Positions 15,855 to 36,697 of a DNA stretch of 64,000 bases are shown piece after piece. Positions within the stretch are counted from its first letter, which is position 1, and every line of letters begins with the position of its first letter. The stretch is from Melghiribacillus thermohalophilus. GTDB lineage: Bacteria > Bacillota > Bacilli > Bacillales > Alkalibacillaceae. A program made the translations under genes and the position numbers. Location of the stretch: contig NZ_SMAN01000004.1 in the NCBI RefSeq assembly GCF_004342905.1, forward strand, positions 62,001 to 126,000. The letters are read 5' to 3'. Under the pieces are notes generated by a model. It made no database searches, was not told where the DNA came from, and worked only from the letters and a program-made list of their open reading frames with translations.

Positions 15855-16049
15855 CATAGAATGAGAAAATCGTTGAGCTACTTTGGACATTTTTTAGCTA
15901 CAGCAGATTCCCGTAGTCCTCATCCCTTAATCGGTGATGATCAGCAATCCGTGCGTTCTTTCTTCTAAAAGCGCAGGTCTATTCTGCTACATTCAAGTTA
16001 GGCAATGGCTTTTTTTCGCGACGAGTCGTCTCCGATTTATTCCACTCTT

Positions 16050-16058
16050 CATAAAGTA
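16050..16058 (+). promoter_or_regulatory. Possible sigma-K -10 element before sat
   Basis: CATAAAGTA fits the sigma-K -10 consensus CATANNNTA, 56 bases before the sat start. At the -35 position (16-17 bases upstream) the sequence is CC or TC rather than AC, so the match is partial. The gap 15855-16113 holds no other clear promoter, S-box or cysteine T-box that I can see. Confidence 0.3.
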
Positions 16059-16113
16059 TCCATAGGACCAAATCAAAAACATCAAGCTTTCGAAAATATT
16101 GAGGAGGGATAAA

Positions 16114-19070: not shown

Positions 19071-19081
19071 GGAGGATTCGG

Positions 19082-20943: not shown

Positions 20944-20967
20944 CATTTATCCCTCCAAAGGATTTGT

Positions 20968-22194
20968 TCAGGCGAGCTGTATGGCACGTTGATATAAATT
21001 TTCTACATCATGAAGCAGGCTTCTGGTTGACCAGTGTTGTTCCCCCCACTTTTTCGCTCTTTCTCCCATCTGAATTCTCAACGTGTCTTTTTCCAGCATT
21101 TCCGTTAAACAGCTGTACAGTTTTTTGCTGTCGCCGGCAGGAAATATAAAGCCTGTTTCTCCATCTTGTACCAGTTCAGGTAATCCGTGCGAATCACTGA
21201 CAATGGCGGGCAGTCCAAATAACTGGGCCTCAATTAATGCAAAGGGCTGATTTTCCTGTAAACTGGGAAGGACAAAGATGTCAGCTTGCTGAAGATAGTA
21301 ACCGACATATTGGGTAGTCCCAAGGAAAAACACACGGTCATTTAGTCCAAGCTGACAGGCCTTCTCTTCAAGCTCTTTTTTCATTTCACCGTCCCCAAGA
21401 ATCCAGCAAACCCAGTCATCTCTTTCCTGTTTGAGCCGTTCAAGAGAATCGAGAAGATCATGAATGCCTTTTAAATAGACGAGTCTGCTAGTGGTTAGAA
21501 TCACTTTTTTGTTTTTAGGTTTTTGTATTTGCGAGGAAATCCCCTGAGGATATTGCTGTAATTCTTTTATATCCATTCCATAAGGAAATGTGACTATCTT
21601 GTCAGGTTTAACAGAAAACCGATTGGTAATATTGTTACGCATCCAGCGTGAGGAAGTATGAATCAGATCACTGGATTGATAGCCGATTCTCTCGAGAAAC
21701 TTGTAATACTGATAGGTATCTGTTTGGTAGATTTCTTCGTCTGAAAGGTTACGGTTCCCGGTTTTTAATGAGTAGTAAATGGCTCCTGACAGATAGCCGT
21801 GTACACTCGTAACAATCGGGATATGTCGCGGTTTGACACGGCGAAATGATCTTGCTGCAATCACATCCTGGGCATGAATGATATCGTATTGTGCGAGATT
21901 GAGTGATGCCGTAACGAATTCAAAACAATATCGGTTGATTTCCGCATTTAAAATACGATTGTTTGTGACAAAATCATCCTTACCAAGAATCCGGATAAGG
22001 AAATTTCTGAAAGGGAGTTTATCAAACGTTTGGTTCTTATTGTATAGATGATAATCATTTAGTTCTGGGCTCTGTCCAAAAATGTCCACCTCATGCCCTT
22101 TAAGTTCGAGCTGATTTTTTAAATGCCTGACAAACGTCCAGATTCCACCACCGGGAATGCGGAAGGATGTCGCAATTAAAATTTTCACATTCAT
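20968..22194 (-). CDS. Glycosyltransferase family 4 protein
   Basis: Predicted 408-residue GT-B enzyme. The N-terminal motif RIPGGGIWTFVRHLKNQLE, the donor motif LTTSRLVYLKGIHDL and the GT4 pattern ENQPFALIEAQLFGLPAIV are present. The ATG at 22194 overlaps the stop of the small upstream gene (ATGAATG); AAGGAAGGG directly adjoins it, and a GTG six bases in (22188) has better spacing, so the exact start is uncertain. Cytoplasmic. Member of the glycan island, 21-24 bases upstream of the next GT gene. Confidence 0.87.
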   Translation of the reverse strand: MNVKILIATSFRIPGGGIWTFVRHLKNQLELKGHEVDIFGQSPELNDYHLYNKNQTFDKLPFRNFLIRILGKDDFVTNNRILNAEINRYCFEFVTASLNLAQYDIIHAQDVIAARSFRRVKPRHIPIVTSVHGYLSGAIYYSLKTGNRNLSDEEIYQTDTYQYYKFLERIGYQSSDLIHTSSRWMRNNITNRFSVKPDKIVTFPYGMDIKELQQYPQGISSQIQKPKNKKVILTTSRLVYLKGIHDLLDSLERLKQERDDWVCWILGDGEMKKELEEKACQLGLNDRVFFLGTTQYVGYYLQQADIFVLPSLQENQPFALIEAQLFGLPAIVSDSHGLPELVQDGETGFIFPAGDSKKLYSCLTEMLEKDTLRIQMGERAKKWGEQHWSTRSLLHDVENLYQRAIQLA

Positions 22195-22334
22195 CCCTTC
22201 CTTGATAAAGGCTTTGAAGTTTTATCTTTTTTTACGTTCATCCATTTAACCATCTCGGGATCTGGAATTTGATATCCTTTCGGCAAATTTTTTTTTGCTT
22301 TTTTCCAGAGTTCTTCTGCAGAATAGTCTTTCAT
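22191..22334 (-). CDS. Small 47-residue protein opening the GT4 operon
   Basis: A short gene beginning MKDYSAEELWKKAKKNL, with TAGGAGG at good spacing before the ATG at 22334 and its TGA overlapping the start of the next gene. It is basic, soluble, and Lys-rich at the C-terminus; I recognise no family. Support comes from the strong ribosome site, translational coupling to the glycosyltransferase and a sigma-K-like promoter 36 bases upstream. It could be an adaptor for the glycosyltransferases or a coat-associated peptide; both are guesses. Confidence 0.65.
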   Translation of the reverse strand: MKDYSAEELWKKAKKNLPKGYQIPDPEMVKWMNVKKDKTSKPLSRKG

Positions 22335-22369
22335 ACAGATCCTCCTATCACCTGATATTTCCCACAATT

Positions 22370-22397
22370 TACTATATGGAATATCGGAAGCTTCTGT
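22370..22397 (-). promoter_or_regulatory. Sigma-K-type promoter (minus strand) for the GT4 operon
   Basis: Reading the minus strand: AC (22397-22396), 17 bases, then CATATAGTA (22378-22370), a full match to AC-N16/17-CATANNNTA. It lies 36 bases before the start of the 47-residue gene. Confidence 0.55.
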
Positions 22398-22448
22398 ATA
22401 GTTGCACTGCCCTTGCGCAAAAAATAAAAAACTAGTGAAAGGATGGAT

Positions 22449-22476
22449 ACGGGCCAGCGTATGGATGCATAAATTA
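22449..22476 (+). promoter_or_regulatory. Sigma-K-type promoter for the GT2 gene at 22493
   Basis: AC (22449-22450), 17 bases, CATAAATTA (22468-22476), a full match to the sigma-K consensus. It diverges from the minus-strand promoter at 22370-22397. The -10 ends only 17 bases before the ATG, so the leader would be very short and the ribosome site GGGTGAG would sit close to the transcript end. Confidence 0.45.
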
Positions 22477-22492
22477 ATAGCGGGTGAGAATC

Positions 22493-23206
22493 ATGTATAA
22501 TCCAAAAGTATCGATTATTATCCCCTTTTATAATTGCCCCTATGTCGATCATGCAATTATGAGTGGACTGAACCAGACTTATAACAATAAGGAAATCATT
22601 CTAGTGAATGATGGTTCAGATCAATATGTGGAAAAGCTGGAACCTTATATGGACCAGATCATATATATTGAAAAAGATAATGGTGGAACCGCCAGTGCAT
22701 TAAATGCAGGAATAAAAGCAGCAAGTGGTGACTATATTTCCTGGTTAAGTTCAGATGATATCCATTACCGGGAAAAGACAGAAAAACAAATAGCATTTAT
22801 GACCTCAAAAAGGATCCGCTGTACATGCACGAACTATCATATTATGAACCATCAGTCAAAAATCGTAAGGAAATATGCCGGAAAGTCATTTGCCACACGG
22901 GATGAGTTTGATCAATATGTATTAAAAGGCATCAATCCTATTCATGGCTCTTCTGTCATCATTCAAAGAAACGTATTTGAACAGACAGGATTATTTAACG
23001 AAAAACTAAAGTATGTTCAGGATTTTGAATTATGGCTAAAGGTGATGGAACTGGAAACGATTGTCTTTTTGAAAGAACCTCTTCTTTTATATCGCATTCA
23101 TGGCCGTATGGGGACGAGAAGAAACCAGGAAGAAATCAAAAAGGAAAAAGAAATGTTCTTAAAGGAGCATTTACCAGCCATCCGAAAAAGACAGATCAAT
23201 AAATGA
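22493..23206 (+). CDS. Glycosyltransferase family 2 protein
   Basis: Predicted 237-residue GT-A glycosyltransferase: VSIIIPFYNCPYVDHAI at the start, VNDGS, then the SSDD metal/nucleotide motif, and VQDFELWLKV near the catalytic base region. No membrane segment. It is a close paralogue of the product at 29368 (shared VSIIIPFYNCP, LNQTY, NDGS and GTASALNAGI). ATG 22493 is used; a GTG lies 9 bases upstream. Monocistronic, ended by the terminator at 23239. Confidence 0.87.
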   Translation: MYNPKVSIIIPFYNCPYVDHAIMSGLNQTYNNKEIILVNDGSDQYVEKLEPYMDQIIYIEKDNGGTASALNAGIKAASGDYISWLSSDDIHYREKTEKQIAFMTSKRIRCTCTNYHIMNHQSKIVRKYAGKSFATRDEFDQYVLKGINPIHGSSVIIQRNVFEQTGLFNEKLKYVQDFELWLKVMELETIVFLKEPLLLYRIHGRMGTRRNQEEIKKEKEMFLKEHLPAIRKRQINK

Positions 23207-23238
23207 TTAAGAGTCCCACCATGTTATCCTCACTGTAA

Positions 23239-23287
23239 TGGGCTGTCTCACAAGCACGGTATCGCTTTGAGACAGCCCAGATTTTTT
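23239..23287 (+). terminator. Terminator after the GT2 gene
   Basis: A perfect 12-base stem (23239-23250 with 23268-23279) and six T residues (23282-23287). Confidence 0.85.
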
Positions 23288-23396
23288 AAAAGATATCTGT
23301 TCCCATACAGCCCCTTGAGCTGCTTCCATCATGCTGTGAATCAGAAATTCTCCAGCCAGGCCCTTCAACAAAAACGGGTCGACTTTTCATTTCTAA

Positions 23397-24359
23397 CTAA
23401 TCTACAGGATGAATCGAGAAGATGGCATTTAGTCCGAACTCTTCAACTTCAAAATCCCAGAGAAATGTTTGCGAATGTAAATCATAACAGGCTAACCGAG
23501 TAGGCATAACTCCATAACCTCCGAGACGAATTTCTTTTCCATCTTCCCGGATTTTTTTGGAGGGTCGGATTCTGGAAAAACCTACGATAGCCTTGCCGTC
23601 AGAAAATACATGAATTCCTCTGGTCCATCCGAGGGGTTTATCAACATCGGTCATGGCATTTAAATTATACCGTCGTTTCACCTGCAGATGATTCCGGTCG
23701 ATTTCGATGATATAGCCGTTCACCTGTGTAAAGTAAATGGAATCATCAAGGATAAATCCATCATGAATGTAGGCATTTCCTACGTCAATAACTTTTCTGG
23801 GATTCGTCAGGCAAATCGCATCCTTTTGATGACATCTTGTAGCAAAAATATCATTTTCTACAGTGAATACATAATTGGGATGAGACTTATGGGGTTTGGT
23901 TGAAGGCACCTTTCGATAATCGACTTCTTTTGAAAATCGTTCCCAGGGACTGTCAATCACTCCCCATTCTCTGATAACGGATCCCTTCTGAGTAACTTCC
24001 AGGACCATATCCAATCCTGTGTTCACAACTAGCAGGTTTCCATTTTCGCGGGGACGAACATGATGAATATCGTTAAAACAGGGGAGTGTGATATACCCCG
24101 ATAGTTGAAAATCGGGCAGGGAATAAATCATAACCTCTGTTTGCGTACCTACGTATAATTTGTCATTCTTGATGGTAGCAGCGGTAAAATGAGTAGATGT
24201 ACCGCCATCAGCACAAACTTCTTTGGGCGATTGATACTCCAGTACAGTTTCCTGGGTTCCTTTGTCAGTATCCACTTTTAAAATAAGCCCTTTTTCATAC
24301 TGCTGCCAGTCTTTTAAAACTTCTCCTTTTTGTTTTCCTCCAACGATATATAGGTTCAT
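23397..24359 (-). CDS. Beta-propeller-like protein of unknown function
   Basis: Predicted 320 residues, soluble, without a signal peptide. Repeated beta-blade-like stretches are visible (LYVGTQTEVMIYSLPDFQ, NLLVVNTGLDMVLEV, IFATRCHQKDAIC, IYFTQVNGYIIEID, AIVGFSRIRPS), with His, Asp and Arg residues in loops. The layout resembles orphan propellers of the TIGR03032/DUF4915 kind, but I cannot confirm that. ATG 24359 follows GAGGTG; a GTG 9 bases upstream is less likely. It lies alone on the minus strand inside the glycan island. It may bind or modify a glycan or act as a scaffold. Confidence 0.65.
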   Translation of the reverse strand: MNLYIVGGKQKGEVLKDWQQYEKGLILKVDTDKGTQETVLEYQSPKEVCADGGTSTHFTAATIKNDKLYVGTQTEVMIYSLPDFQLSGYITLPCFNDIHHVRPRENGNLLVVNTGLDMVLEVTQKGSVIREWGVIDSPWERFSKEVDYRKVPSTKPHKSHPNYVFTVENDIFATRCHQKDAICLTNPRKVIDVGNAYIHDGFILDDSIYFTQVNGYIIEIDRNHLQVKRRYNLNAMTDVDKPLGWTRGIHVFSDGKAIVGFSRIRPSKKIREDGKEIRLGGYGVMPTRLACYDLHSQTFLWDFEVEEFGLNAIFSIHPVD

Positions 24360-24392
24360 ATCCCACACACCTCATTTGTTCGTATTCCCTGA

Positions 24393-24401
24393 TAGTTTAT
24401 G
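24393..24401 (-). promoter_or_regulatory. Sigma-K-like -10 element for the beta-propeller gene
   Basis: On the minus strand, CATAAACTA fits CATANNNTA and lies 34 bases before the ATG, like the other sites in the island. No AC is present 16-17 bases upstream, so the -35 is unsupported. Confidence 0.35.
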
Positions 24402-24435
24402 TACAAAAACAAAAGATGCATGGGTTGCTATAAAA

Positions 24436-24463
24436 ACAGCAACATAGTTTTTTTCATATATTG
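24436..24463 (+). promoter_or_regulatory. Weak sigma-K-like promoter for the nucleotide-sugar operon
   Basis: AC (24436-24437), 17 bases, CATATATTG (24455-24463): one mismatch in the last TA. The -10 also fits the sigma-E form CATAYAHT (CATATATT), but no sigma-E -35 is visible. It is 29 bases before ATG 24493. Confidence 0.3.
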
Positions 24464-24492
24464 AAGAGAAATTTCAAAAAAGGAGTTTGATC

Positions 24493-25410
24493 ATGAACGT
24501 TTTAATCACAGGCGGATGTGGATTTGTAGGGTCCCAGACCGTAAAACAATGTGTTGAAAATGGAATGAATGTATCTGTGATTGACAACTTGAGTACCGGG
24601 TCAAAAAATAACATTAAACCTTATTTGCAGGATGTACAATTTTTTAATCAGGATATATGTGAACCTCTTGGTGAAATTTTCCGTCAGAGTAAACCGGATG
24701 CAGTCATTCATCTTGCGGCCCAGGCCAGTGTTCCGAAGTCAAAAAAGAACTTTTTTTACGATGCTAGAGTTAACATTTTAGGAACCCTGAATGTCCTATC
24801 GTTTGCCAGTCAATATGATGTTGAAAAAATGGTTTACAGCTCGACATCTGCCGTATACGGGGAACCGGAATATTTGCCTGTAGATCCAAACCATCGCACA
24901 GCTCCTAAATCGCCATATGGGATTTCCAAACTCGCATCAGAATTATATCTAAAAAATAATCTGCGTTTGACAGGTATACCGTACACGGTTTTAAGATATG
25001 GAAACGTTTATGGACCTGGTCAGAATATTCAGGGAGAGGGTGGGGTAGTTGCTATATTTGCCCATAAACTTACGAGAGGCATGAAACCCGTCATTTATGG
25101 TGACGGGGAACAGACAAGGGATTTTGTATATGTCGAGGATGTAGCCAGGGCAAATGTCATGGCAGTACATCACGGAAATAATTGCGTTGTGAACGTTTCA
25201 ACCGGTATATCAACAAGTCTAAATGAACTCTGGAATCTCATGACGGAACTCGAAAATCTTCAGATAAAACCGGTATACAAAAAAGCAAAAGACGAAGATA
25301 TTAAACATAGTTTATTAGATTCAAGCAGTGCCAGAACGCATTTAAACTGGGAACCCCTTACCTCCTTCAAAAAAGGGTTGAAAAACACTTTAGATTTTTA
25401 CCGCCCATAA
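24493..25410 (+). CDS. NAD-dependent epimerase/dehydratase (UDP-glucose 4-epimerase-like SDR)
   Basis: Predicted 305-residue extended short-chain dehydrogenase acting on a nucleotide sugar. The cofactor motif ITGGCGFVGSQ (GxxGxxG) and catalytic SPYGISKLASELYL (YxxxK) are intact; SSTSAVYGEPEYLPV is the usual Ser/Thr site. GalE or WbpP-type 4-epimerisation is the most likely reaction, with the exact substrate unknown. AAAGGAG precedes ATG 24493 (the frame begins with TTG 24487). It opens the plus-strand operon that leads through the 2-epimerase to the glycosyltransferases. Confidence 0.85.
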   Translation: MNVLITGGCGFVGSQTVKQCVENGMNVSVIDNLSTGSKNNIKPYLQDVQFFNQDICEPLGEIFRQSKPDAVIHLAAQASVPKSKKNFFYDARVNILGTLNVLSFASQYDVEKMVYSSTSAVYGEPEYLPVDPNHRTAPKSPYGISKLASELYLKNNLRLTGIPYTVLRYGNVYGPGQNIQGEGGVVAIFAHKLTRGMKPVIYGDGEQTRDFVYVEDVARANVMAVHHGNNCVVNVSTGISTSLNELWNLMTELENLQIKPVYKKAKDEDIKHSLLDSSSARTHLNWEPLTSFKKGLKNTLDFYRP

Positions 25411-25495
25411 AGACAACCTGAAAGTCGGTGACAGCAGATCACGGATCTTCCCCGGCACATCGCCTCTTTCCTGTTTTTTTAAACTTCTATCATTT

Positions 25496-25522
25496 ACCAT
25501 CTTGCTATTTAGACATACTCTG
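25496..25522 (+). promoter_or_regulatory. Weak sigma-K-like site before the 2-epimerase gene
   Basis: AC (25496-25497), 16 bases, CATACTCTG (25514-25522), one mismatch from CATANNNTA. It lies 35 bases before ATG 25557 in the 146-base gap of the operon and may be an internal promoter. Confidence 0.25.
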
Positions 25523-25556
25523 ACAGTGAGAAATGAAAAAACCGGAGGATTGCCTC

Positions 25557-26648
25557 ATGAAGATTATGACGATTTTAGGAACCAGACCGGAAATTATCCG
25601 GTTGAGTTTAATCATGCCATTACTGGATCAATATGCGAAGCAGCATGTGATTGTTCATACCGGTCAAAATTTTACTCGTTCATTAAATGATGTTTTTTTT
25701 GCTCAACTTGGCCTTCGTACGCCTGATTATGTGCTCTCCCACTCACAAAAATCATTTGGGGAACAACTGTCAATCATTTTTACAGAACTGGAAACCATCC
25801 TGTCACAGGAAGAACCCGACCGTGTCCTGATATTGGGAGACACGAATAGTGCCTTAAGCGCCATTCTTGCGGAGAGAATGAATATTCCCGTTATTCATAT
25901 GGAAGCGGGTAATCGCTGTTTTGACAGGGAAGTGCCAGAAGAAATAAACAGAAAAATGGTGGATTCCGTATCATCTTTTAACCTTCCTTATACTGAAAGA
26001 AGCAAACAACATCTTATTCAAGAAGGAATTCCAGTCAACCGTATATATGTGACGGGAAATCCTATTTATGAAGTGATTCAGCATTATGATGAAGACATTT
26101 CGAAAAGCAATATTCTGGAGAGACTAAAGGTGGATCCCTATCAATATTTTTTAGTTACGTTCCACCGTTCGGAAAACGTGGATTGCCCCGAACATCTAAA
26201 TGAGATTATTCAGGGGTTGAATCTCGTGGGAATACATTATGGCCGCCGAATCATTTGCAGTATTCATCCAAGAACACGCTCAAAAATAAGCAAAGAACTT
26301 CTGGATGAACTTCACCCCCTTGTTGAATTTTATGAACCCTTTGGTTTTTTCGAATTTATACATCTCCTGCAGCATGCAGCATGTGTTTTAACCGACAGCG
26401 GTACCGTACAGGAAGAGTGCTGTATATCCCATGTGCCTGCCGTTACTTTAAGAAAGACAACAGAACGTCCGGAGACGATTGAATGTGGCAGCAATGTTCT
26501 ATCAGGTCTTGATGCCAGAAGTATTCTGGAAAAAACAGATGTGATGTTGAAGTGTCAAAGGAACTGGAATTGCCCGGAGGGTTATCTCGATCGGAATGTA
26601 TCAGATCGGGTCGTGAAATTTTTGCTTGGAGGTGCAGCAATTGTTTGA
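25557..26648 (+). CDS. UDP-N-acetylglucosamine 2-epimerase family (WbjD/WbvD/FnlC-like)
   Basis: Predicted 363-residue non-hydrolysing 2-epimerase. It starts MKIMTILGTRPEIIRLS; HTGQNF, the catalytic DTNSAL/HMEAGNRCFDR region, TFHRSENVD and the late DSGTVQEECC site are all present. CFDREVPEEINRKMVD departs from the MnaA form and resembles enzymes that epimerise 2-acetamido-2,6-dideoxy-L-hexoses. GGAGG at 25543-25547 sets ATG 25557. Immediately followed, with an 8-base overlap, by the 4,6-dehydratase and then an RmlD-like reductase; together they form a complete pathway set. Confidence 0.85.
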   Translation: MKIMTILGTRPEIIRLSLIMPLLDQYAKQHVIVHTGQNFTRSLNDVFFAQLGLRTPDYVLSHSQKSFGEQLSIIFTELETILSQEEPDRVLILGDTNSALSAILAERMNIPVIHMEAGNRCFDREVPEEINRKMVDSVSSFNLPYTERSKQHLIQEGIPVNRIYVTGNPIYEVIQHYDEDISKSNILERLKVDPYQYFLVTFHRSENVDCPEHLNEIIQGLNLVGIHYGRRIICSIHPRTRSKISKELLDELHPLVEFYEPFGFFEFIHLLQHAACVLTDSGTVQEECCISHVPAVTLRKTTERPETIECGSNVLSGLDARSILEKTDVMLKCQRNWNCPEGYLDRNVSDRVVKFLLGGAAIV

Positions 26649-27627
26649 AAACCGAAAGATACTCATAACTGGAGGAACCGGATCATGGGGACAGGAACTG
26701 ACACGGCAAATTTTAAAAAAGAACCCGTCTGAAGTAAGAATTTTTTCCCGCAATGAATCCAGTCAGGTGGAAATGAAACAAATGTTTAATGAGCACCCGG
26801 CTTTGTTTTTTATTTTGGGAGATGTCCGCGATCAGAAAGCTCTGTCAGATGCATGCAAAGGTGTTGATTATATCTTCCATCTCGCTGCTCTGAAACACGT
26901 TCCTGTTTGTGAATATCAGCCCTATGAAGCATTAAAAACAAATGTAACTGGAACCAGGAACGTGATTGAAGCAGCTCTTGTGAATCAGGTTGAAAATGTG
27001 ATTTATATCTCAACGGATAAAGCAGCAAATCCGGCCAATTTTTATGGGTTTACAAAAGCAATAGGCGAAAAATTGTTTATTCATGCCAACACATTAAGTT
27101 CCCGCTCGAAGTTTATCTGTATTCGATCCGGAAATGTTTTGGGAACCAATGGCAGTGTTATTCATGTCTTTAAAGATCAAATGGAGCGAAAAGGAAAAAT
27201 CGAAATCACAGACAGGAGAATGACCAGATTTTTCCTTACCATTGAAGATGCTGTTGAATTATTGTTCAGGGCAACGGAGGAAAGCATCGGGGGAGAAATA
27301 TTTGTGATGAAAATGCCAGCAATCAGAATCATAGATCTGGCTCACGTTTTAATCGAGCATTCTGGAAGTGAAAACATAAATATTGAAGAAAAGGGCTTAC
27401 GTCCTGGAGAAAAAATTCATGAATTATTGCTGACAGAATTTGAAAGTAATCATACGGTTGTCTATAAAGATCATTATTATATTATTCTTCCACCCATTGA
27501 AATCGAAGGGGTTAGGGAACATTATAAACATTTCCCGGCAATGAGCGGAGAAATTTATCATTCCAATTATAACCTCATGAGCAAATTGGAAATAAAAAGA
27601 ATGCTAGAAAAAGGGGGGTTTTTATAG
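26641..27627 (+). CDS. UDP-GlcNAc 4,6-dehydratase/5-epimerase (WbjB/CapE/PseB-like)
   Basis: Predicted 328-residue SDR. The cofactor motif TGGTGSWGQEL, the STDKAANPANFYGFTKA segment containing the catalytic YGFTK in place of YxxxK, and GNVLGTNGSVI are diagnostic of the inverting UDP-GlcNAc dehydratase family. It forms the 4-keto-6-deoxy-L-hexose intermediate from UDP-GlcNAc. TTG 26641 is the start, set by GGAGG at 26628-26632; it lies inside the end of the 2-epimerase gene. The reductase gene follows with one-base overlap (TAGTG). Confidence 0.88.
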   Translation: MFENRKILITGGTGSWGQELTRQILKKNPSEVRIFSRNESSQVEMKQMFNEHPALFFILGDVRDQKALSDACKGVDYIFHLAALKHVPVCEYQPYEALKTNVTGTRNVIEAALVNQVENVIYISTDKAANPANFYGFTKAIGEKLFIHANTLSSRSKFICIRSGNVLGTNGSVIHVFKDQMERKGKIEITDRRMTRFFLTIEDAVELLFRATEESIGGEIFVMKMPAIRIIDLAHVLIEHSGSENINIEEKGLRPGEKIHELLLTEFESNHTVVYKDHYYIILPPIEIEGVREHYKHFPAMSGEIYHSNYNLMSKLEIKRMLEKGGFL

Positions 27628-28457
27628 TGAAGATCCTGGTTCTGGGCGGAAGAGGAATGGCCGGGCATATGATTGTAGATTATTTTCATAAAAGAACAGA
27701 GCATGATATTTTTTATACCTCCCGTGACCGGGATGACAAAGAAGGTTTTTTTCTGGATGTAAGGGATCCAGATAAAACAGAACAATTGATCAAACAGGTA
27801 AGTCCGGATATTTTAATCAACTGTATCGGGCTGTTAAATGAAAATGCGAGCAAAAATAAAGTGGACGCCTTTTACGTCAATGGGATATTGCCGCATCAGC
27901 TGGCTTCGTGGATGGAGAGGAAAAACGGGAAGCTCATCCACATAAGCACGGATTGTGTATTTAGCGGAGAAAGGGGAAGTTATACCGAAAATGACCAGCC
28001 CGATCCAGTTTCAGTATATGGGAAGACAAAAGCTCTGGGGGAAATCAAGGAAAGTGATGTCCATCTTACGATTCGCACCTCGATGATTGGTCCGGAACTA
28101 AAAGAGAATGGGATTGGACTGTTTCAATGGTTTATGAAACAGAGGGGAGAAATTTTCGGATATAAACAAGTATTCTGGAATGGGGTAACGACACTGGAGC
28201 TGGCTAAAGCCATTAATCAAATGATCAATAACAATATCACTGGCTTATATCACCTTTGTTCTGAATCGAAAATATCGAAACATGATTTATTAAAATGGAT
28301 CAAACAAGTTTTTCAAAAAGATGATGTCCGAATACTGGAAGATGAATCCCATCAGCTTGATCGAACACTTCTTCAAACAAGATCGGATTTTCATTATGCA
28401 GTTCCGGACTATGAACAGATGCTGATCGAGCTGAAAAATTGGATGGATCAGTCATGA
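27627..28457 (+). CDS. RmlD-like nucleotide-sugar 4-reductase (WbvR-like)
   Basis: Predicted 276-residue SDR of the dTDP-4-dehydrorhamnose reductase group. It begins with GTG: LVLGGRGMAGHMIVDYF gives the cofactor motif, STDCVFSGERGSY is the RmlD signature and VYGKTKALGE the catalytic YxxxK. Unlike WbjC/CapF it has no cupin domain, and the short RmlD form is what is found in UDP-L-QuiNAc pathways (WbvR). The likely step is reduction of the 4-keto-L-sugar made by the preceding enzyme. ATGA overlap with the next gene. Confidence 0.85.
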   Translation: MKILVLGGRGMAGHMIVDYFHKRTEHDIFYTSRDRDDKEGFFLDVRDPDKTEQLIKQVSPDILINCIGLLNENASKNKVDAFYVNGILPHQLASWMERKNGKLIHISTDCVFSGERGSYTENDQPDPVSVYGKTKALGEIKESDVHLTIRTSMIGPELKENGIGLFQWFMKQRGEIFGYKQVFWNGVTTLELAKAINQMINNNITGLYHLCSESKISKHDLLKWIKQVFQKDDVRILEDESHQLDRTLLQTRSDFHYAVPDYEQMLIELKNWMDQS

Positions 28458-29368
28458 CTGTAACGTCCGATATTTTAATTACAGGTGCTGGTGGTTTTAC
28501 CGGTCAGCATGCATGCAGGTATTTTGCCAGTCAGGGTTATCGGGTTACCGCGTTAACCCATAAACAGCATCTGAAAGATCCGACAGATGATCAGGTTAAG
28601 GAAGTAAAGGGTGATCTGCTTGAATGGAAGCAGGTCAGGGATCTGGTGAAAACTGTAAGGCCAGAAAACATCCTTCATCTCGCAGGACAAAATCATGTAG
28701 AAGAATCCTGGTCACACCCCTTAAAGACAATGAACATGAATTTTTTGGCAACCCTTTACCTCCTGGAAGCCGTCCGTAATGAAAAACTGCCCGCAAAAAT
28801 ATTGCTTATCGGATCCGCACTTCAGAATGATCAGCCACACATGATGCCATCCAAACACCCCTATGAATTAAGCAAAACATTTCAAACGATGCTGGCGAAA
28901 AATTGGTCTGCATTTTATCAGATGAATATCGTCATAGCCAGACCCACTAATTTAATTGGCCCGGGGCCTTCCAGGGGGGTCTGTTCGATGATTGCGGAAA
29001 AAATTGCATCAATGGAAAAAAAGATGGAATCTGACCCTATAACAATTGATGACCCTTCAGTTCAAAGAGATTTTCTTGATGTCCGGGATGCTGTAGCCGC
29101 TTATGAACGGCTGTTTCAAAAAGGGATTCCGGGGGAAGAGTACGACGTCGGTTCTGGTAAAAGCAGGTCACTGGCTGAAGTGGTAGAAGCTTTTCAATCA
29201 CTAACCAGTGTTTCCTTACCTCAATATTCCATCCAGGAGAAAAACACATTCAGTGTAAATATAGAAAATATTAGACAACTTGGATGGAAACCAGTCCGAA
29301 GTTTCCCTGAATCTTTAAAAGATGTATTGAGCTATTATCGTATTCATGCTGAAAAGGAGGAAGCATAA
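28454..29368 (+). CDS. NAD-dependent epimerase/dehydratase (GDP-4-keto-6-deoxymannose reductase-like)
   Basis: Predicted 304-residue extended SDR. TGAGGFTGQHACRYF is the cofactor motif; HLAGQNHVEESWSHP and HPYELSKTFQTML (catalytic YELSK) resemble GDP-6-deoxy-D-lyxo-4-hexulose reductases (Rmd). The true nucleotide sugar cannot be read from sequence. It is translationally coupled to both neighbours (ATGA upstream, TAATG downstream), so it belongs to the same sugar pathway or supplies a second sugar. Confidence 0.8.
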   Translation: MTVTSDILITGAGGFTGQHACRYFASQGYRVTALTHKQHLKDPTDDQVKEVKGDLLEWKQVRDLVKTVRPENILHLAGQNHVEESWSHPLKTMNMNFLATLYLLEAVRNEKLPAKILLIGSALQNDQPHMMPSKHPYELSKTFQTMLAKNWSAFYQMNIVIARPTNLIGPGPSRGVCSMIAEKIASMEKKMESDPITIDDPSVQRDFLDVRDAVAAYERLFQKGIPGEEYDVGSGKSRSLAEVVEAFQSLTSVSLPQYSIQEKNTFSVNIENIRQLGWKPVRSFPESLKDVLSYYRIHAEKEEA

Positions 29369-30096
29369 TGGAAAAAGTATCCATTATCATTCCCTTTTAT
29401 AATTGTCCTTTTATCGATCAGGCCATTCAAAGTGCATTGAACCAGACCTACCAAAATGTGGAGGTTATTGTGGTGAATGACGGTTCTACATCCCATACGA
29501 GACAAATATCACCTTTTTTATCAAAAATCAAGTATATCGAAAAGGGGCATGCAGGGACTGCGAGTGCTTTAAATGCTGGCATCACCCATGCAACCGGCGA
29601 GTATTTTGCCTGGCTCAGTTCAGATGATGTATTCTTACCCGATAAAATTCAGAAACAACTGGCACATATGAAAATAAACCGGACAAAAGTATCCCACACC
29701 GCTTATAAGTTAATCGACGGGAAGGGTCAAAATATTGGAAGTCCGATTCAGTTTCATTTTGCCAATAAACAATCATTTTATAAAACATTGCTGAAACAAT
29801 GCCCGGTGAATGGCAGTACGGTGATGACCCATATGGATGTATTTCAGAAGGTTGGACTTTTCGATGAGTCATTAAGGTTCACTCAGGATTATGATATGTG
29901 GTTAAGACTAGCCAAAATATATGACTTTACGTATTTAAAATGGCCTCTCATTCAATATCGGGTCCATACCGGAATGGGGAGTTTTAAATATGCATCAGGG
30001 TTGAGAAAAGAAACGATGAAAGTAATGGACAGACACAGGAAGGACATTAAACAGTTGATAATAAGGGAGAGAAAGAAAAAATGGACTAATCACTGA
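29368..30096 (+). CDS. Glycosyltransferase family 2 protein (paralogue of the 22493 product)
   Basis: Predicted 242-residue GT-A enzyme: VSIIIPFYNCPFIDQAI, VVNDGS, GTASALNAGI, LSSDD and TQDYDMWLRL. The pattern matches the 22493 product closely, indicating a duplication within the island. Lys/Arg-rich C-terminus, no membrane segment. One-base overlap with the upstream SDR gene, AAAGGAGG just before the start. Confidence 0.87.
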   Translation: MEKVSIIIPFYNCPFIDQAIQSALNQTYQNVEVIVVNDGSTSHTRQISPFLSKIKYIEKGHAGTASALNAGITHATGEYFAWLSSDDVFLPDKIQKQLAHMKINRTKVSHTAYKLIDGKGQNIGSPIQFHFANKQSFYKTLLKQCPVNGSTVMTHMDVFQKVGLFDESLRFTQDYDMWLRLAKIYDFTYLKWPLIQYRVHTGMGSFKYASGLRKETMKVMDRHRKDIKQLIIRERKKKWTNH

Positions 30097-30118
30097 TTCG
30101 AACACTTTTCATAAGATA
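30092..30118 (+). promoter_or_regulatory. Sigma-K-type promoter for the GT2 gene at 30151
   Basis: AC (30092-30093), 16 bases, CATAAGATA (30110-30118): a full match to AC-N16/17-CATANNNTA. It lies 32 bases before ATG 30151, the same distance as for the minus-strand sites at 22.37 and 33.94 kb. Confidence 0.55.
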
Positions 30119-30150
30119 AAACAGAAGATAAAGAGAAAGGTGGGTCTGGT

Positions 30151-31026
30151 ATGACTAAAAAACCTATAGTTTCCATTATCTTCCCGGCAAAAAATGAAGG
30201 GAATCATGTAAAAGAGACACTCCAATCCTTATTTTCGGTAAAAACCCATGTAACTTTTGAAGCCATTGTAGTCGATGATCATTCTGATGACGGATGCTGT
30301 CATTTTTTAAAACATCCCAGCTCTTTTCAGGGAGTGAAGCTTATTGAAACGAAGGGACTTGGAGCCTCTAACGCAAGAAATGAAGGAGCTAAACATGCAA
30401 ATGGAGAGTATTTCGTATTTTGTGATGCTCATTTACAATTTGAACATAGGTGGTTAGACCGTCTACTAGAGCCGCTTCAGCACAACAGGGCGGATGCCGT
30501 TACCCCTGGCATAGCTGCTTCTGAAAACCCACATCATATCGGGTATGGACAAACATTAAACAGTAAATTGAAAGTTACCTGGAATCCGAGACCCAATCAT
30601 CTTTCGGAGACAGCTATTTTGCCAGGGGGCTGCTTGATGATTCATCGAGATGTTTTTGAACATGTGGGAGGGTTTGACAGGGGGTTCAAAGTATGGGGAT
30701 ATGAGGATGTAGAATTGTCTATTAAATTATGGCTATTCGGTTATCGTCTTTCTGTTTGTCCCGTTGTAACTATTTTGCATAAATTCAGGAAATCTCATCC
30801 ATATCAGGTATCCATGAAACATGTCCATTATAACCTTCTCAGGATGGCCTATTCTCATTTCAATTTTAAACGGATTCAGAAATGCAAAAAATTAATTGAT
30901 CATGATGCCCATTCCATTCAAAGGGACATTATTCGTGATGGCGTGTTATCCCGGCGGGAAATGTATTTTAAAATGCGAAAGTATGATGATGAATGGTTTT
31001 TTCGAAAATTCAACATTCCATTTTAG
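30151..31026 (+). CDS. Glycosyltransferase family 2, polypeptide GalNAc-transferase-like
   Basis: Predicted 291-residue GT-A enzyme. It begins VSIIFPAKNEGNHVKETLQSLF; FCDAHLQFEHRWLD supplies the DxH metal motif, and PGGCLMIHRDVFEHVGGFDRGFKVWGYEDVELSIKLW, read in parts, gives the GGFD and WGYEDVELS motifs typical of GT2/GT27-type polypeptide or chondroitin transferases. A DxH plus WGxEDxE arrangement is compatible with protein O-glycosylation. AAAGGTGG sets the ATG. It has its own sigma-K-like promoter. Confidence 0.85.
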   Translation: MTKKPIVSIIFPAKNEGNHVKETLQSLFSVKTHVTFEAIVVDDHSDDGCCHFLKHPSSFQGVKLIETKGLGASNARNEGAKHANGEYFVFCDAHLQFEHRWLDRLLEPLQHNRADAVTPGIAASENPHHIGYGQTLNSKLKVTWNPRPNHLSETAILPGGCLMIHRDVFEHVGGFDRGFKVWGYEDVELSIKLWLFGYRLSVCPVVTILHKFRKSHPYQVSMKHVHYNLLRMAYSHFNFKRIQKCKKLIDHDAHSIQRDIIRDGVLSRREMYFKMRKYDDEWFFRKFNIPF

Positions 31027-31032
31027 TCCATG

Positions 31033-31061
31033 AAAAAATCCCCAGAAATCGTTTCTGGGAA
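31033..31061 (-). terminator. Terminator of the coiled-coil/JAMM operon (minus strand)
   Basis: On the minus strand the arms 31060-31052 and 31048-31040 (TCCCAGAAA with TTTCTGGGG) close a three-base loop and are followed by TTTTTT (31038-31033). Confidence 0.75.
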
Positions 31062-31424
31062 TTAAATCATGTTAAACTCGGCACGCTCCGCCTTCCCTTT
31101 GCGAATATAATAACATTGAACATCCGGAGAGGAAGATGCAAGAGAGACAATAAAATAGGGAAGGTTCTGGTAATGAAAATGATCCATGTCTTCTTTCGAT
31201 GGATATGGACTTGCGGAAGGATGGGAATGAAAAACTCCCATAAATTGTTCACCCAGATAGTGTATTCTTTCCAGGACATCATTGATTTCTTCCGGATCCA
31301 TCATAAAAGATTCGGGACTGGCATCTATGTTTTTCATTTTCCAGATTCGGGAAATTACAGTCGAGTTTCCTGAAAGAATTCCACAGCCTTCGTTAGGAAG
31401 TTCGGAAATACAATGGTCAATCAT
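31062..31424 (-). CDS. JAMM/MPN (JAB1/Mov34) metalloprotease-like protein, start uncertain
   Basis: The frame encodes 120 residues from the first ATG. The zinc-protease motif is complete: Glu in LPNEGCGILSG, HSHPSASPYPSKED (HxHP...S...D). Conserved family sequence continues in the same frame upstream of this ATG (HAILIHRHAYDA), so 31424 is probably not the true N-terminus. No ATG, GTG or TTG lies in that upstream part, and no ribosome site precedes 31424. A separate frame upstream (31587-31465) has a good ribosome site and would join this one if one A were lost from the A8 run at 31495-31488. Bacterial JAMM proteins cleave ubiquitin-like or sulfur-carrier fusions; the target here is unknown. 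Confidence 0.72.
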   Translation of the reverse strand: MIDHCISELPNEGCGILSGNSTVISRIWKMKNIDASPESFMMDPEEINDVLERIHYLGEQFMGVFHSHPSASPYPSKEDMDHFHYQNLPYFIVSLASSSPDVQCYYIRKGKAERAEFNMI

Positions 31425-31464
31425 GGCATCATACGCATGTCGATGAATCAGAATGGCATGGTGT

Positions 31465-31587
31465 TTACTTGCAGCAGTCCGATCCCCTTTTTTTTCTAAT
31501 CGTTTTTTTAAACGTGAGAGAAGGTTTGCTGGTTACTGGAACTGACCTTTTTCTTCTGTACAGCAATTGAAGATCGCTTCTTTTCAA
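31465..31587 (-). other. Possible N-terminal exon-like frame of the JAMM gene (frameshifted)
   Basis: A 40-codon frame starts at TTG 31587, with AAAGGAG at 8-base spacing, and ends at TAA 31465. It is very basic (Lys/Arg-rich). It overlaps the upstream extension of the JAMM frame, which is open from just after 31530. Deleting one base in the A8 tract (31495-31488, followed by GGGG) would give one 174-residue protein. It could be programmed slippage, a real frameshift mutation, a sequencing error or an independent small gene. Confidence 0.4.
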
Positions 31588-31615
31588 TCTGATCACTCCT
31601 TTCAACATTGAACCT

Positions 31616-32608
31616 TTATTGGGTATATTTAAAAGGGTTAAAAATTAAACGTTCCTCAGCCTGATCGGTTTCAGGATAATAGGAAGGCTGGAACTGTTCT
31701 GAAATGTGGCTTGATTTGTAATCGCTATTTTCCTGATGTGTCTTCTTTTTCTTTGGTGCATCTGATTGTCTGTTTCGTTCCATTTTTCTTAATAGCAACT
31801 TTAATTCATTCATTTCATTTTTGTAGCTTTGTTCTAAATCTTTACTCATTTTTTCCATATGGTCAAAAAACGTTTCGTATTCTGTGAGTTGATCCTGAAG
31901 CTTTTGCAATGTAATCATGATTTCGTTCATTTTATCTTCGTATGGTATTTGTTTCGTTTTTTTTTCGTCGTTATTCCAGAAATTGAAAAACATTTCTCTA
32001 ATCCCTCCTTCTTTATGATCATTTTCAGCTGTCAAATGAAGATCATTTATGATCTGGGCGAAATAATTCTTTTTTTCATCAATGAATTGTTGAATATTTA
32101 GATGTTTAGATTCATATCTCTTAATTGTGTGAAACATTTGATCGAGCATATAGGTTTTCTTTTTTACTAAATAATTGAATAGCTCTTTACATCTGGTATC
32201 TGTTTTTGTTTTCTCTAAATTATGCACATGTCTGGATAAAAAAAGAATGGTTTGCTGGCTTTCGGATAGCCGATCATTCAACTTTTTTAATTGGCGGCTC
32301 AACTCTTCGTTTTTTTTCATTTGATATTGACGGTCTTTTTTGGATATCGTTTGTTTTTGTTGAATTGCATTTAATCGTCTGATCAAAGATTGAATCCTGT
32401 TTTTCATGTCTGGACTTTCATCTGCATTACATTCACTATTCTGGAAGTGTGTGCGTATAACGGTTAGCCGATGTCTGGAATTCATAACATCACGTGAAAT
32501 CTTTCGGGTTTCCAATTCATATTCGTCAAGCTGTTTTTTTAATTGATCCGTTTTCCATCCCAAAAAGGCAAGGGACCGGTTGTCAGAAGGAACCGTTTGA
32601 TTAGACAT
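31616..32608 (-). CDS. Coiled-coil protein of unknown function
   Basis: Predicted 330 residues, highly charged and helical: heptad-like Leu/Ile spacing runs through about residues 15-270, with a polar C-terminal tail (KKKTHQENSDYKSSHISEQF). No signal peptide, membrane segment or enzyme motif. AAAGGAGG precedes the ATG. It is 28 bases upstream of the JAMM reading frame and probably cotranscribed. A structural or scaffold role, for example in spore surface assembly, is suggested only by context. The product at 35414 is a second coiled-coil protein in the same island. Confidence 0.7.
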   Translation of the reverse strand: MSNQTVPSDNRSLAFLGWKTDQLKKQLDEYELETRKISRDVMNSRHRLTVIRTHFQNSECNADESPDMKNRIQSLIRRLNAIQQKQTISKKDRQYQMKKNEELSRQLKKLNDRLSESQQTILFLSRHVHNLEKTKTDTRCKELFNYLVKKKTYMLDQMFHTIKRYESKHLNIQQFIDEKKNYFAQIINDLHLTAENDHKEGGIREMFFNFWNNDEKKTKQIPYEDKMNEIMITLQKLQDQLTEYETFFDHMEKMSKDLEQSYKNEMNELKLLLRKMERNRQSDAPKKKKTHQENSDYKSSHISEQFQPSYYPETDQAEERLIFNPFKYTQ

Positions 32609-32706
32609 GAAAGATCCTCCTTTCTTTCATTAGTATATTCATTGAACAGAATGGGATTGAATCAGTCCGGGAAAAATAGGCGTATGTAGCAAAAAATAGA
32701 GAGTAA

Positions 32707-32725
32707 GGGGAGTTAAGTCCTCCCC
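32707..32725 (-). terminator. Possible terminator after the Cys-rich protein gene
   Basis: A six-base GGGGAG/CTCCCC stem on the minus strand with a seven-base loop. The T-run comes about nine bases later, so the terminator is weak. Confidence 0.35.
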
Positions 32726-32734
32726 ACACCCTTA

Positions 32735-33916
32735 TTAATCATCATCATTATTATTTGTAAGAATATCGTTAAAGGTACGGCATTCGCTGTAATTGACAAG
32801 TGCATCTACTACTCCGCTATCAAACACAACCTGACCTGAACTGTTTCTCAGGATTAAGCGGAACTGATCTGGATCATTGAAAATGTTAAGTTCATAGAAC
32901 AGCGTTTCTTCCGTTCCATCAAATGAACGTCTTCCCTCGCCAAACGCTGTCAATGACTCTTCAGCCAGATTGCTTGTGACCCGTTCAATTGTTGTAGGAA
33001 CAAATGTAAAACTATAATCAAACGGAGATGGAGTAGGAGTTGGCGTTGGTGTAGTATCTGGATCCGTAGCATCAAATTCATAGTAGAACGTGCTATTAGC
33101 CACTGAACACTCTTGAGCAATTTCAGCTTCAAGTGTCGATAAACCAGTTACGACTGTTCCGTTAAACTCTGCGACGGTATCTTCATTTCGGGCCAATGCA
33201 GTAGCCTGGCTTTCAGTATTTTGTCTAGGGAAGATGGCGGGACATTGCTCAGGAAATTCGAGCAGATCAAGATCACAAGGGAACGTTTGCTCAGGTAATT
33301 CAATATCATTCGGACGAGGAAAGCAAAATTTAGCCAGTACTTCTAATTTGACCGGGTATTCAACCTGAACATCTTTACAAAGGATTACCCTCACAGGAAC
33401 CATTGGTCCAAATGGATCCGATCCCATTAACACCCCATTATTTGATGGGCAAATAACCTGTGTGGCCCGGCAGTTGATATTGTCATTTGTAATTCCAGAG
33501 GGAACACATAGGGCAATCTCATCCCTGAATTGGGTACGTACGGTAAACGTGCAGGCTACATTGCCATTAATTAGAACAGAGACTTCTACTGGTACAGTCC
33601 ATATAATCTGAACTCTTCCTGGATTTCCATTTTCAAGTATGGTCGCGTTGCACAGTACATCATCCGGGTCTGCCGGGTCGCATTGCACGGTTACTTCTTC
33701 TCCCTGTTGAAGGGCATTTGTAACAGCTGTACGGCAGGCCTCATCTGGAATCATGTTTTTGTTTTGATATTCAGTTGTAAAGAAAACCCAGTCGTAAACT
33801 TTATCTACACGAATGCATTCGGGAGTCAGGTCATTTGGATCTAATGGAATGCCTGTTGGAGTCGGTGAAGGAGTAATCTGTGATCCCCTGATCGATTTAC
33901 GCTTACTCACAAACAT
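32735..33916 (-). CDS. Cysteine-rich protein with Thr-Pro stretches, candidate spore-surface protein
   Basis: Predicted 393 residues with roughly 15 cysteines, no signal peptide and no membrane segment. Near the N-terminus is ITPSPTPTGIP, then a region starting ECIRVDKVYDWVFFTTEY, a beta-rich section (VQIIWTVPVEVSVLING, ACTFTVRTQF, PVRVILCKDVQVEYPVKLEV), a Thr-Pro linker DTTPTPTPTPSP around residue 292, a second beta-rich domain and an acidic tail (NNNDDD). Cys-rich, leaderless proteins of this kind occur in spore coats and exosporia. A full sigma-K-type promoter lies 27 bases upstream. The Thr/Ser-Pro stretches are plausible O-glycosylation sites for the neighbouring transferases. The family is not one I can name. 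Confidence 0.7.
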   Translation of the reverse strand: MFVSKRKSIRGSQITPSPTPTGIPLDPNDLTPECIRVDKVYDWVFFTTEYQNKNMIPDEACRTAVTNALQQGEEVTVQCDPADPDDVLCNATILENGNPGRVQIIWTVPVEVSVLINGNVACTFTVRTQFRDEIALCVPSGITNDNINCRATQVICPSNNGVLMGSDPFGPMVPVRVILCKDVQVEYPVKLEVLAKFCFPRPNDIELPEQTFPCDLDLLEFPEQCPAIFPRQNTESQATALARNEDTVAEFNGTVVTGLSTLEAEIAQECSVANSTFYYEFDATDPDTTPTPTPTPSPFDYSFTFVPTTIERVTSNLAEESLTAFGEGRRSFDGTEETLFYELNIFNDPDQFRLILRNSSGQVVFDSGVVDALVNYSECRTFNDILTNNNDDD

Positions 33917-33942
33917 TCATCCTTTCTGTATTGGAGTCACTA

Positions 33943-33969
33943 TATCGTATGGCTAAATGGGGGTTCGGT
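33943..33969 (-). promoter_or_regulatory. Sigma-K-type promoter for the Cys-rich protein gene
   Basis: On the minus strand: AC (33969-33968), 16 bases, CATACGATA (33951-33943). Full match to the consensus, 27 bases before the start codon. Confidence 0.55.
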
Positions 33970-34062
33970 AAATTTTAAATGCCTATTTTTGTGAAATTTT
34001 TTAGATTTTGTTTTATTTTTGAATGACTTATATAGACGGAATAGCAAGAGGAGGTTGGGCAT

Positions 34063-35211
34063 TTGCATATCCCTGTTTTTTTGAATGAAAACAAAGTACT
34101 GGAAATTCCTTCTAGCGATTTAATAAAATTTAAACGGTTTTGCGAGTTAAATGGGTATCAGCTCAAGTGGAAAGATTCCCTACAGGGAATAAAAATAGAA
34201 TCAGCTCTTCCCCAGAAGATGATTAACATCAATCTGTCGGATCATGGTCAAAAAAAAGAAGAGATGTACATGAAGAAGGAGCTTACACGATTATTAAATG
34301 GAGATGTTTTATTTGTCAGTAATCAACATCATGAAAAAAAAACTGCTGACCTAACACTTGTTCTGGAAGGAAGGGTAAATCCATACACAAGTACTCCTAC
34401 AGTGACCATTTTATATACAGTTGACCTAAAACCTCATTTTAAAAAACATCTGGATGCATTCCGGATTCAGAACAACTTTAAACGGGCAGCAGATAAAAAT
34501 ACAAGTCTGCTGATTGTCCAGTTGAATATTCCTAAAGCCCTTGAGGATTCTGACCAATCTTTCTACAGGAGGCTCGCGATCTCACTCGCTTCGGGGATTA
34601 TGGACTATTTCCTGGACAAAAAAAATAGCAGCCACGCATTCCCTGTCGAAGTGTTAAAGATGTTTACCGGCAACCACCAAAACAATCAAGTATCCATTGC
34701 ACCCAAAGAATCATCCCGTTTGCCAAAAAGGGTTCCCGGTACCAGGGAACAACTCATTGATATGTATCTGGATTATACGATTTATCCCTCCAGTGAAGAA
34801 GAGATGTACATTATAAAGGGAGATATAGTTATCAAAAACAGCGGAAACACAGATGTAAACAATCCTCTAGTATGTTTAAAAGTAGACCCGGTTGACACGA
34901 TTTCAATCGGGGGACAAATTTTGCCTCCTGATATAGCTGAAACCATGGGAGTGCACACATCAAAAGGAATTAGTGGTTGGAAATTCATGTATGAAGACTG
35001 GTTTGAACGGGCGAAAGAACGGGGAGAATACTGGATATCTCCAATATCCGATTTTACGATAACATCTGGAGAGCAACTAAAAATAAGTGATGTACAATTT
35101 ATTGTAAAAAAACCTTCACAGCAAAACATGGCTAGAATCAAAAGTTTTCTGATTACTTCTGAACAAAACCAAAAATTTCCTTCCCAAAACAGTATAACCA
35201 TTTCTTTTTAA
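34063..35211 (+). CDS. Unknown two-part protein with C-terminal beta-sandwich-like domain
   Basis: Predicted 382 residues starting at TTG 34063, set by AAGAGGAGG with 8-base spacing. The N-terminal part (about 1-210) is alpha/beta with charged helices; the C-terminal part (about 235-360) is beta-rich and has CARDB/Ig-like features: IVIKNSGNTDVNNPLVCLKV, then ERGEYWISPISDFTI and SGEQLKISDVQFIV. No signal peptide or membrane segment. It diverges from the Cys-rich protein gene across 146 bases in which I find no plus-strand sigma-K site. Function unknown; a surface or coat component is an inference from neighbours. Confidence 0.6.
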   Translation: MHIPVFLNENKVLEIPSSDLIKFKRFCELNGYQLKWKDSLQGIKIESALPQKMININLSDHGQKKEEMYMKKELTRLLNGDVLFVSNQHHEKKTADLTLVLEGRVNPYTSTPTVTILYTVDLKPHFKKHLDAFRIQNNFKRAADKNTSLLIVQLNIPKALEDSDQSFYRRLAISLASGIMDYFLDKKNSSHAFPVEVLKMFTGNHQNNQVSIAPKESSRLPKRVPGTREQLIDMYLDYTIYPSSEEEMYIIKGDIVIKNSGNTDVNNPLVCLKVDPVDTISIGGQILPPDIAETMGVHTSKGISGWKFMYEDWFERAKERGEYWISPISDFTITSGEQLKISDVQFIVKKPSQQNMARIKSFLITSEQNQKFPSQNSITISF

Positions 35212-35225
35212 GGTGATCGGGTCTG

Positions 35226-35251
35226 CCGCAATCCTCAGGGTTGCGGTATTT
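35226..35251 (+). terminator. Hairpin after the 34063 gene, possible terminator
   Basis: A nine-base stem (35226-35234 with 35238-35246, one G-T pair) with a three-base loop, followed by only a short TATTT. It could terminate weakly or protect the mRNA end. Confidence 0.45.
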
Positions 35252-35396
35252 GAGTTATCCCCGGAATCACTGCATCTAACTGAAAGTCCTCAGGCAGCTC
35301 CCAGGATCAGTGCTGCGTTCCCTAATCAGGAATGTTTGATGAATGTTATTCACTGGACTGTCCGATCGGGCATATGCTGAAGGAGGGGGATCCATT

Positions 35397-35417
35397 ATGA
35401 GAGGGTGGATGACATGA
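35397..35417 (+). CDS. Six-codon leader reading frame before the coiled-coil gene
   Basis: ATG 35397 has an excellent ribosome site (AAGGAGGGGG, 35380-35389) and encodes MRGWMT before a TGA that overlaps the ATG of the next gene (ATGA at 35414-35417). Translation of the mini-frame could couple initiation of the coiled-coil gene, which has only GAGGGTGG of its own. It could also be a fortuitous frame if transcription begins inside this region. Confidence 0.4.
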   Translation: MRGWMT

Positions 35418-36661: not shown

Positions 36662-36691
36662 TTGACATGCCGGTGATGTATTGCATATAAT
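36662..36691 (+). promoter_or_regulatory. Main sigma-A promoter of the infC operon
   Basis: A consensus TTGACA (36662-36667), 18 bases, and TATAAT (36686-36691). The start would lie near 36698, giving a leader of about 225 bases to infC. Confidence 0.8.
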
Positions 36692-36697
36692 ATAAAA

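Follow-up and report, generated by a model that had tools for sequence, protein, structure and literature searches.

In a 64,000-nucleotide (nt) stretch of Melghiribacillus thermohalophilus DNA (NZ_SMAN01000004.1, positions 62,001 to 126,000; hereafter the window, whose own numbering we use), a 16-kb block at 19.9-36.4 kb (19888-36415) carries glycosyltransferase, sugar-nucleotide and spore coat genes in dispersed, divergent units. Do the sigma-K-type sequences that stand before these units place the whole island under one late-sporulation program? A first-pass annotation had proposed a late mother-cell regulon for building or decorating the outside of the spore, and this proposal is supported by the placement of the sites, the C in their -35 element, positive controls in the same genome, recurrence across species, and the family of the coat protein. 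We put at about 90% the probability that the block is an island of spore-surface glycan and coat genes controlled by sigma-K and GerE, with most of its units started by sigma-K late in the mother cell.

Placement of the sigma-K-type sites

The pattern searched was AC at -35, a spacing of 16 or 17 nt, and CATANNNTA at -10. The four full matches of the first-pass annotation all lie at the coordinates and on the strands it gave (Table 1), and its three partial matches, at 24393(-), 24436(+) and 25496(+), are real, each with one mismatch; all seven are thus present, but a fourth one-mismatch site, at 35352-35379(+), had been overlooked. Its gaps to the start codon for the full matches, 36, 17, 32 and 27 nt, hold for the 32 nt and remeasure as 35, 16 and 26 nt for the other three. 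The site-to-start distance is 29-35 nt in seven of the eight sites, 22449(+) being the exception; this range takes the coat gene to start at GTG 33910 rather than ATG 33916, which is probable because the Rossellomorea orthologs start there in the alignment. A scoring matrix trained without the window and run over its 64 kb places three of the four exact sites first, second and fourth, with 22370-22397(-) at the top.

How much of this could be chance? Raw counts carry little weight, because the window holds seven exact matches against 3.5 expected from a Markov model. Across the genome the pattern occurs 151 times and its reversed control 249 times, so that there is no enrichment, as the caution that the motif is weak on its own had anticipated; a few other 11.6-kb stretches also contain four exact matches, a point against our interpretation, and density was dropped as evidence on both grounds. 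Position tells a different story. Among 255 automatically picked gene starts in a 300-kb sample elsewhere in the same genome, an exact site lies within 75 nt upstream of a single one, namely sigK, and a one-mismatch site within the same distance of only about 4%. The 11 unit starts of the island include four with an exact site and eight with a site within one mismatch, against dinucleotide-shuffle means of 0.014 and 0.49, and 0 of 1000 shuffles reached the observed value in either class; these figures are somewhat favorable to us, as the island was delimited with the sites already in view and its unit starts were assigned by the analyst. With automatic start-picking, the 16 island open reading frames yielded three exact and four one-mismatch sites, and the 40 others in the window one and none. 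The shared distance and the -35 element, which had been put forward as the stronger argument, hold up well, with placement before starts far above chance and C at the discriminating -35 position in all eight sites. The sigma-K consensus is shown here to be informative by position and conservation, and uninformative by count.

The three exact matches elsewhere in the window, at 17327(-), 36665(+) and 44423(+), were rejected as sigma-K sites. The first lies within a transporter coding sequence. The second (36665-36692) is clearly a false hit, because it shares its position with a perfect sigma-A promoter, TTGACA-N18-TATAAT (36662-36691, plus), that precedes an L20 leader (RF00558, 36720-36858, plus) and infC, and the third overlaps a plausible sigma-A site ahead of an rRNA methylase gene. 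That at least two exact matches (36665, 44423) coincide with sigma-A-type promoters, and that the pattern is not enriched genome-wide, is what one would expect if the island were a vegetative or biofilm polysaccharide locus under sigma-A, dotted with chance matches in AT-rich intergenic DNA. We consider this highly improbable given the placement, the shuffles, and the positive controls and cross-species conservation described below; moreover, no good sigma-A promoter overlies the three strong exact sites of the island, sigma-A-like sites in the region do not exceed the shuffled level, and the island includes a spore coat protein gene.

Probable assignment to sigma-K

Sigma-E and sigma-K share a -10 element and are told apart by one base of the -35 element: sigma-K promoters have C, read by Arg, and sigma-E promoters have T, read by Gln (PMC517825). 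The genome encodes SigK (TIGR02846, 372.9 bits, above the cut-off), with Arg in the segment SRSYVSR, and its SigE carries Gln in SQSYISR. When units were picked by the -10 element alone in the window, the sister species, and the Rossellomorea and Aliibacillus loci (n=60), the discriminating base was C in 52 and T in 5, a count that permits two spacings and for which the chance share of C is about one third. Exact sites also stand before sigK, gerE, two gerPA/F-type genes and dpaA of the same genome, and a one-mismatch site before yabG. The sigK promoter is a known sigma-K target, and these controls, together with the -35 C of the island sites, back the original assignment of the motif to sigma-K.

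Could the units instead be fired earlier in the mother cell, by sigma-E? The common -10 (PMC517825) would allow it, and a few units do carry T at the -35 position, namely coil in the window and g34 in loci L012, L016 and L013 (gene names as in Table 1). Sigma-E is rejected as the main factor because of the -35 base, and GerE, whose predicted box lies upstream of the coat promoter, acts in the later, sigma-K phase; we regard sigma-E control as improbable. Dual recognition is known, and sigma-E may make a minor contribution.

Conservation in relatives

The coat promoter, which we assign to sigma-K, is exact in all 14 orthologous loci: the window, a sister species of the same genus (G001), eleven Rossellomorea or Rossellomorea-like loci, and Aliibacillus thermotolerans. 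In every one of these loci except that of Aliibacillus (13 of 14), the coat strand also carries a perfect GerE-type box, judged against RWWTRGGYNNYY, which we take to be the GerE consensus; the 5' end of the box is always exactly 19 nt upstream of the -35 A. By chance, about 1.3% of 150-nt stretches would contain a perfect box. The Rossellomorea species are closely related and their loci are not independent, which lessens what both counts lend to our interpretation. Within the island, this result concerns the coat unit only. The genome encodes a GerE homolog with 84% identity to a B. subtilis GerE sequence.

Beyond orthologs, the comparison took in 21 coat-family homologs from other genomes (mostly about 30-40% identical to the window protein, and including that of the sister species). 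Within 80 nt, 18 of them carry a site that has C at -35 and no more than one mismatch; 10 of these sites are exact. Other units behave similarly. The glycosyltransferase gene GT2c has orthologs in L012 and L016 with AC-N16-CATAAGATA at the corresponding place, the Rossellomorea positional homolog of the coiled-coil gene coil is preceded by an exact site in several species, and exact sites also stand before the L081 ortholog of coil2 and the sister-species ortholog of g34, whereas the g34 of the window has none. Of nine unit starts in the sister island, four have an exact site and eight a site within one mismatch. The sites in other loci stand outside the choice by which the island was defined.

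A narrower interpretation would keep only coat, coil and GT2c under sigma-K and leave the sugar-nucleotide operon and the GT4 and GT2a units to other promoters. The sites of prop, epi1, wecB and coil2 each have one mismatch, conservation is strongest for coat and GT2c, and 22449(+), the site of GT2a, is the weakest of the four exact ones, ranking 16th by matrix and leaving a leader of only about 10 nt. This last point also counts against sigma-K control of the island as a whole, and so does the finding that, in the window, JAB, coil and g34 have no site within one mismatch, because of which not every unit is explained. On the other side, one-mismatch sites precede about 4% of background starts, yet they stand before four further island units and before different glycan genes in other loci, and the GT4b-GT4a unit owns the top-scoring site of the window. 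We consider the narrower interpretation unlikely, though less so than control by sigma-E.

Genes of the island and predicted function

Table 1. Candidate promoter elements and genes of the island, in window coordinates.
Feature	Position	Strand	Sequence	Distance	Remarks
Sigma-K-type promoter	22370-22397	minus	ACAGAAGCTTCCGATATTCCATATAGTA	35 nt to ATG 22334	exact; heads small open reading frame and GT4b-GT4a
Sigma-K-type promoter	22449-22476	plus	ACGGGCCAGCGTATGGATGCATAAATTA	16 nt to ATG 22493	exact; heads GT2a
One-mismatch site	24393-24419	minus	GC-N16-CATAAACTA	33 nt to ATG 24359	heads prop
One-mismatch site	24436-24463	plus	AC-N17-CATATATTG	29 nt to ATG 24493	heads epi1
One-mismatch site	25496-25522	plus	AC-N16-CATACTCTG	34 nt to ATG 25557	heads wecB-type operon
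Sigma-K-type promoter	30092-30118	plus	ACTGATTCGAACACTTTTCATAAGATA	32 nt to ATG 30151	exact; heads GT2c; matrix rank 4
Sigma-K-type promoter	33943-33969	minus	ACCGAACCCCCATTTAGCCATACGATA	26 nt to ATG 33916 or 32 nt to GTG 33910	exact; heads spore coat gene; matrix rank 2
GerE-type box	33977-33988	minus	AAATAGGCATTT		5' end 19 nt upstream of -35 AC of coat promoter
One-mismatch site	35352-35379	plus	AC-N17-CATATGCTG	34 nt to ATG 35414	heads coil2
GT4a, family 4 glycosyltransferase	19888-20946	minus			PF00534
GT4b, family 4 glycosyltransferase	20968-22194	minus			PF00534, PF13439
Small open reading frame heading GT4b-GT4a unit	22200-22334	minus			at least 45 codons from ATG 22334; AGGAGG ribosome site
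GT2a, family 2 glycosyltransferase	22493-23206	plus			PF00535
Beta-propeller-like protein (prop)	23397-24359	minus			no Pfam or NCBIfam family
NAD-dependent sugar-nucleotide epimerase (epi1)	24493-25410	plus			PF01370, PF16363
WecB-type UDP-GlcNAc 2-epimerase	25557-26648	plus			TIGR00236, 272 bits (cut-off 210)
PseB/FnlA/CapE-like UDP-GlcNAc 4,6-dehydratase	26626-27627	plus			PF02719; TIGR03589, 332 bits (under cut-off 408)
RmlD-like reductase	27627-28457	plus			PF04321
Second NAD-dependent epimerase/dehydratase	28439-29368	plus			PF01370, PF16363
GT2b, family 2 glycosyltransferase	29368-30096	plus			PF00535
GT2c, family 2 glycosyltransferase	30151-31026	plus			PF00535, PF02709; sister-species ortholog 61% identical
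JAB/MPN-type metallopeptidase-like protein (JAB)	31062-31424	minus			NF041370, 61 bits (under cut-off 130)
Coiled-coil protein (coil)	31616-32608	minus			C-terminal FNP-x-KY motif; aligned with positional homologs of sister species and Rossellomorea
BMQ_0737-family morphogenetic spore coat protein	32735-33910	minus			NF052457, 80 bits (cut-off 71); GTG start
Conserved uncharacterized protein (g34)	34063-35211	plus			homologs in L013, L081, L012, L016
Coiled-coil protein (coil2)	35414-36415	plus			sister-species ortholog 32% identical

The most likely reading of these sites and gene families is that RNA polymerase with sigma-K starts most units during late sporulation, in the mother cell. Every unit would have a promoter of its own, in most cases some 29-35 nt ahead of the start codon, and dispersed, divergent units would therefore fire together upon sigma-K activation; the coat unit would probably be tuned by GerE through the predicted upstream box. 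The outer coat protein and the coiled-coil proteins would assemble at the spore surface, the WecB-type 2-epimerase, the PseB/FnlA-like dehydratase and the RmlD-like reductase would supply one or more deoxy-amino sugar nucleotides, and the glycosyltransferases would attach sugars to the outer spore surface.

This set of enzymes suggests a deoxy-amino sugar nucleotide as the product, which we leave without a name because no specific dehydratase model attains its cut-off. For the UDP-L-FucNAc pathway (FnlA/CapE, CapF, CapG type), the dehydratase reaches 244 of 730 bits with TIGR04130 and, with TIGR03589, stays below the threshold given in Table 1; by these scores it is a related enzyme, not an equivalog.

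The product of prop is 49-53% identical to counterparts adjoining glycosyltransferases in Rossellomorea islands, and its structure model is all-beta (predicted local distance difference test, pLDDT, 79), with propellers in the PDB matching at template-modeling (TM) scores of about 0.5-0.6. The JAB-like gene is kept beside the coat gene in Rossellomorea. The fold model of g34 is poor (pLDDT 67, predicted TM score 0.41). The FNP-x-KY C terminus is common to coiled-coil proteins of low identity, in the window (31616-32608, minus), at L081:18033-18899 and at L009:11285-12481, and is possibly a docking signal. An inverted repeat, GTTGCTATAAAAACAGCAAC, lies at 24424-24443 between the divergent prop and epi1 and overlaps the epi1 promoter; it appeared terminator-like in the scan, yet it stands between divergent starts and is perhaps an operator.

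Possible exchange of glycan genes

The window runs in the order thrS, sulfate activation operon, terminator-like hairpin, island, infC. In the sister species an island occupies the identical thrS-infC slot (L081, L082) and retains coil2, g34, coil, coat and GT2c, but its remaining genes differ: an oxidoreductase, a hexapeptide acyltransferase, other glycosyltransferases, a nucleotide-sugar dehydrogenase and a PseC-like aminotransferase. In Rossellomorea, a window-like island is located between ymdB/kor genes (seen in L009) and a miaB-type gene (seen in L016), and L012 and L016 carry a different glycan set beside the same coat gene, so that the genus has at least two glycan gene sets.

This gene content suggests that glycan cassettes are exchanged around a conserved scaffold, possibly by horizontal transfer. 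Is the island an exchangeable spore-surface 'serotype' locus, in which the scaffold (coat, coiled-coil and, in part, GT2c, g34 and coil2) stays, the glycan genes are swapped, and each incoming unit brings its own sigma-K promoter? We see the arguments for and against this as evenly balanced. If it is true, new cassettes would enter the late mother-cell program from the start. One slot with differing glycan genes and the same promoters offers a natural comparison for how spore surface glycans diversify yet keep their sporulation timing.

The sulfate activation operon (sat/transporter/cysC, genes 16099-19693), which lies between thrS and the island, is missing there in the sister species, and a TC-N17-CATAAAGTA site at 16031-16058(+) lies about 55 nt before it. 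The operon prompted the idea of a sulfated glycan, which was dropped: there is no sulfotransferase among the island genes tested, and the terminator-like hairpin lies between operon and island.

Relation to known spore-surface genes

The B. subtilis sps operon has a mapped sigma-K promoter and is enhanced by GerE (PMC517825, PMC7439481). Like B. subtilis spsM, sps, yfnHGFED, ytdA-ytcABC and cgeAB-cgeCDE, the island combines glycosyltransferases with sugar-nucleotide enzymes for the spore surface, and it belongs with these sigma-K spore glycan genes (sps, yfn, ytc, cge) rather than to a separate kind. Whereas the B. subtilis set is spread over several scattered operons, the island is clustered, has about eight candidate promoters, includes a BMQ_0737-type coat gene, and differs in gene content.

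BMQ_0737 is located in the outermost layers of Bacillus (Priestia) megaterium spores (PMC4656864). The window coat protein exceeds the cut-off of this NCBIfam family, but it has 391-393 amino acids, of which residues 34-230 alone match the domain of 199 positions. In the window, the BMQ_0737-family gene is associated with a glycan island. What emerges is a well-supported in silico sigma-K/GerE regulon that joins a BMQ_0737-family coat protein to glycan enzymes, in a lineage beyond the studied Bacillus species.

Promoters this close to the start codon have precedent. For five of seven sigma-K-dependent exosporium-related genes of B. thuringiensis, transcription has been mapped to start 10-33 nt ahead of the start codon (PMC4750369), so even the short leader of GT2a is possible. 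The B. thuringiensis genes bclA, bclB, bxpB, cotB and exsY resemble the island in having sigma-K-type promoters, most of them with a mapped start near the start codon and several bound by GerE as well (PMC4750369), but they encode nap and basal-layer proteins, not a glycan set.

Downstream of the island, the window contains two T-box leaders (RF00230). One, at 40681-40889(-), overlaps the start region of a pyrroline-5-carboxylate reductase-type open reading frame, and the other, at 45274-45507(+), precedes phenylalanyl-tRNA synthetase genes.

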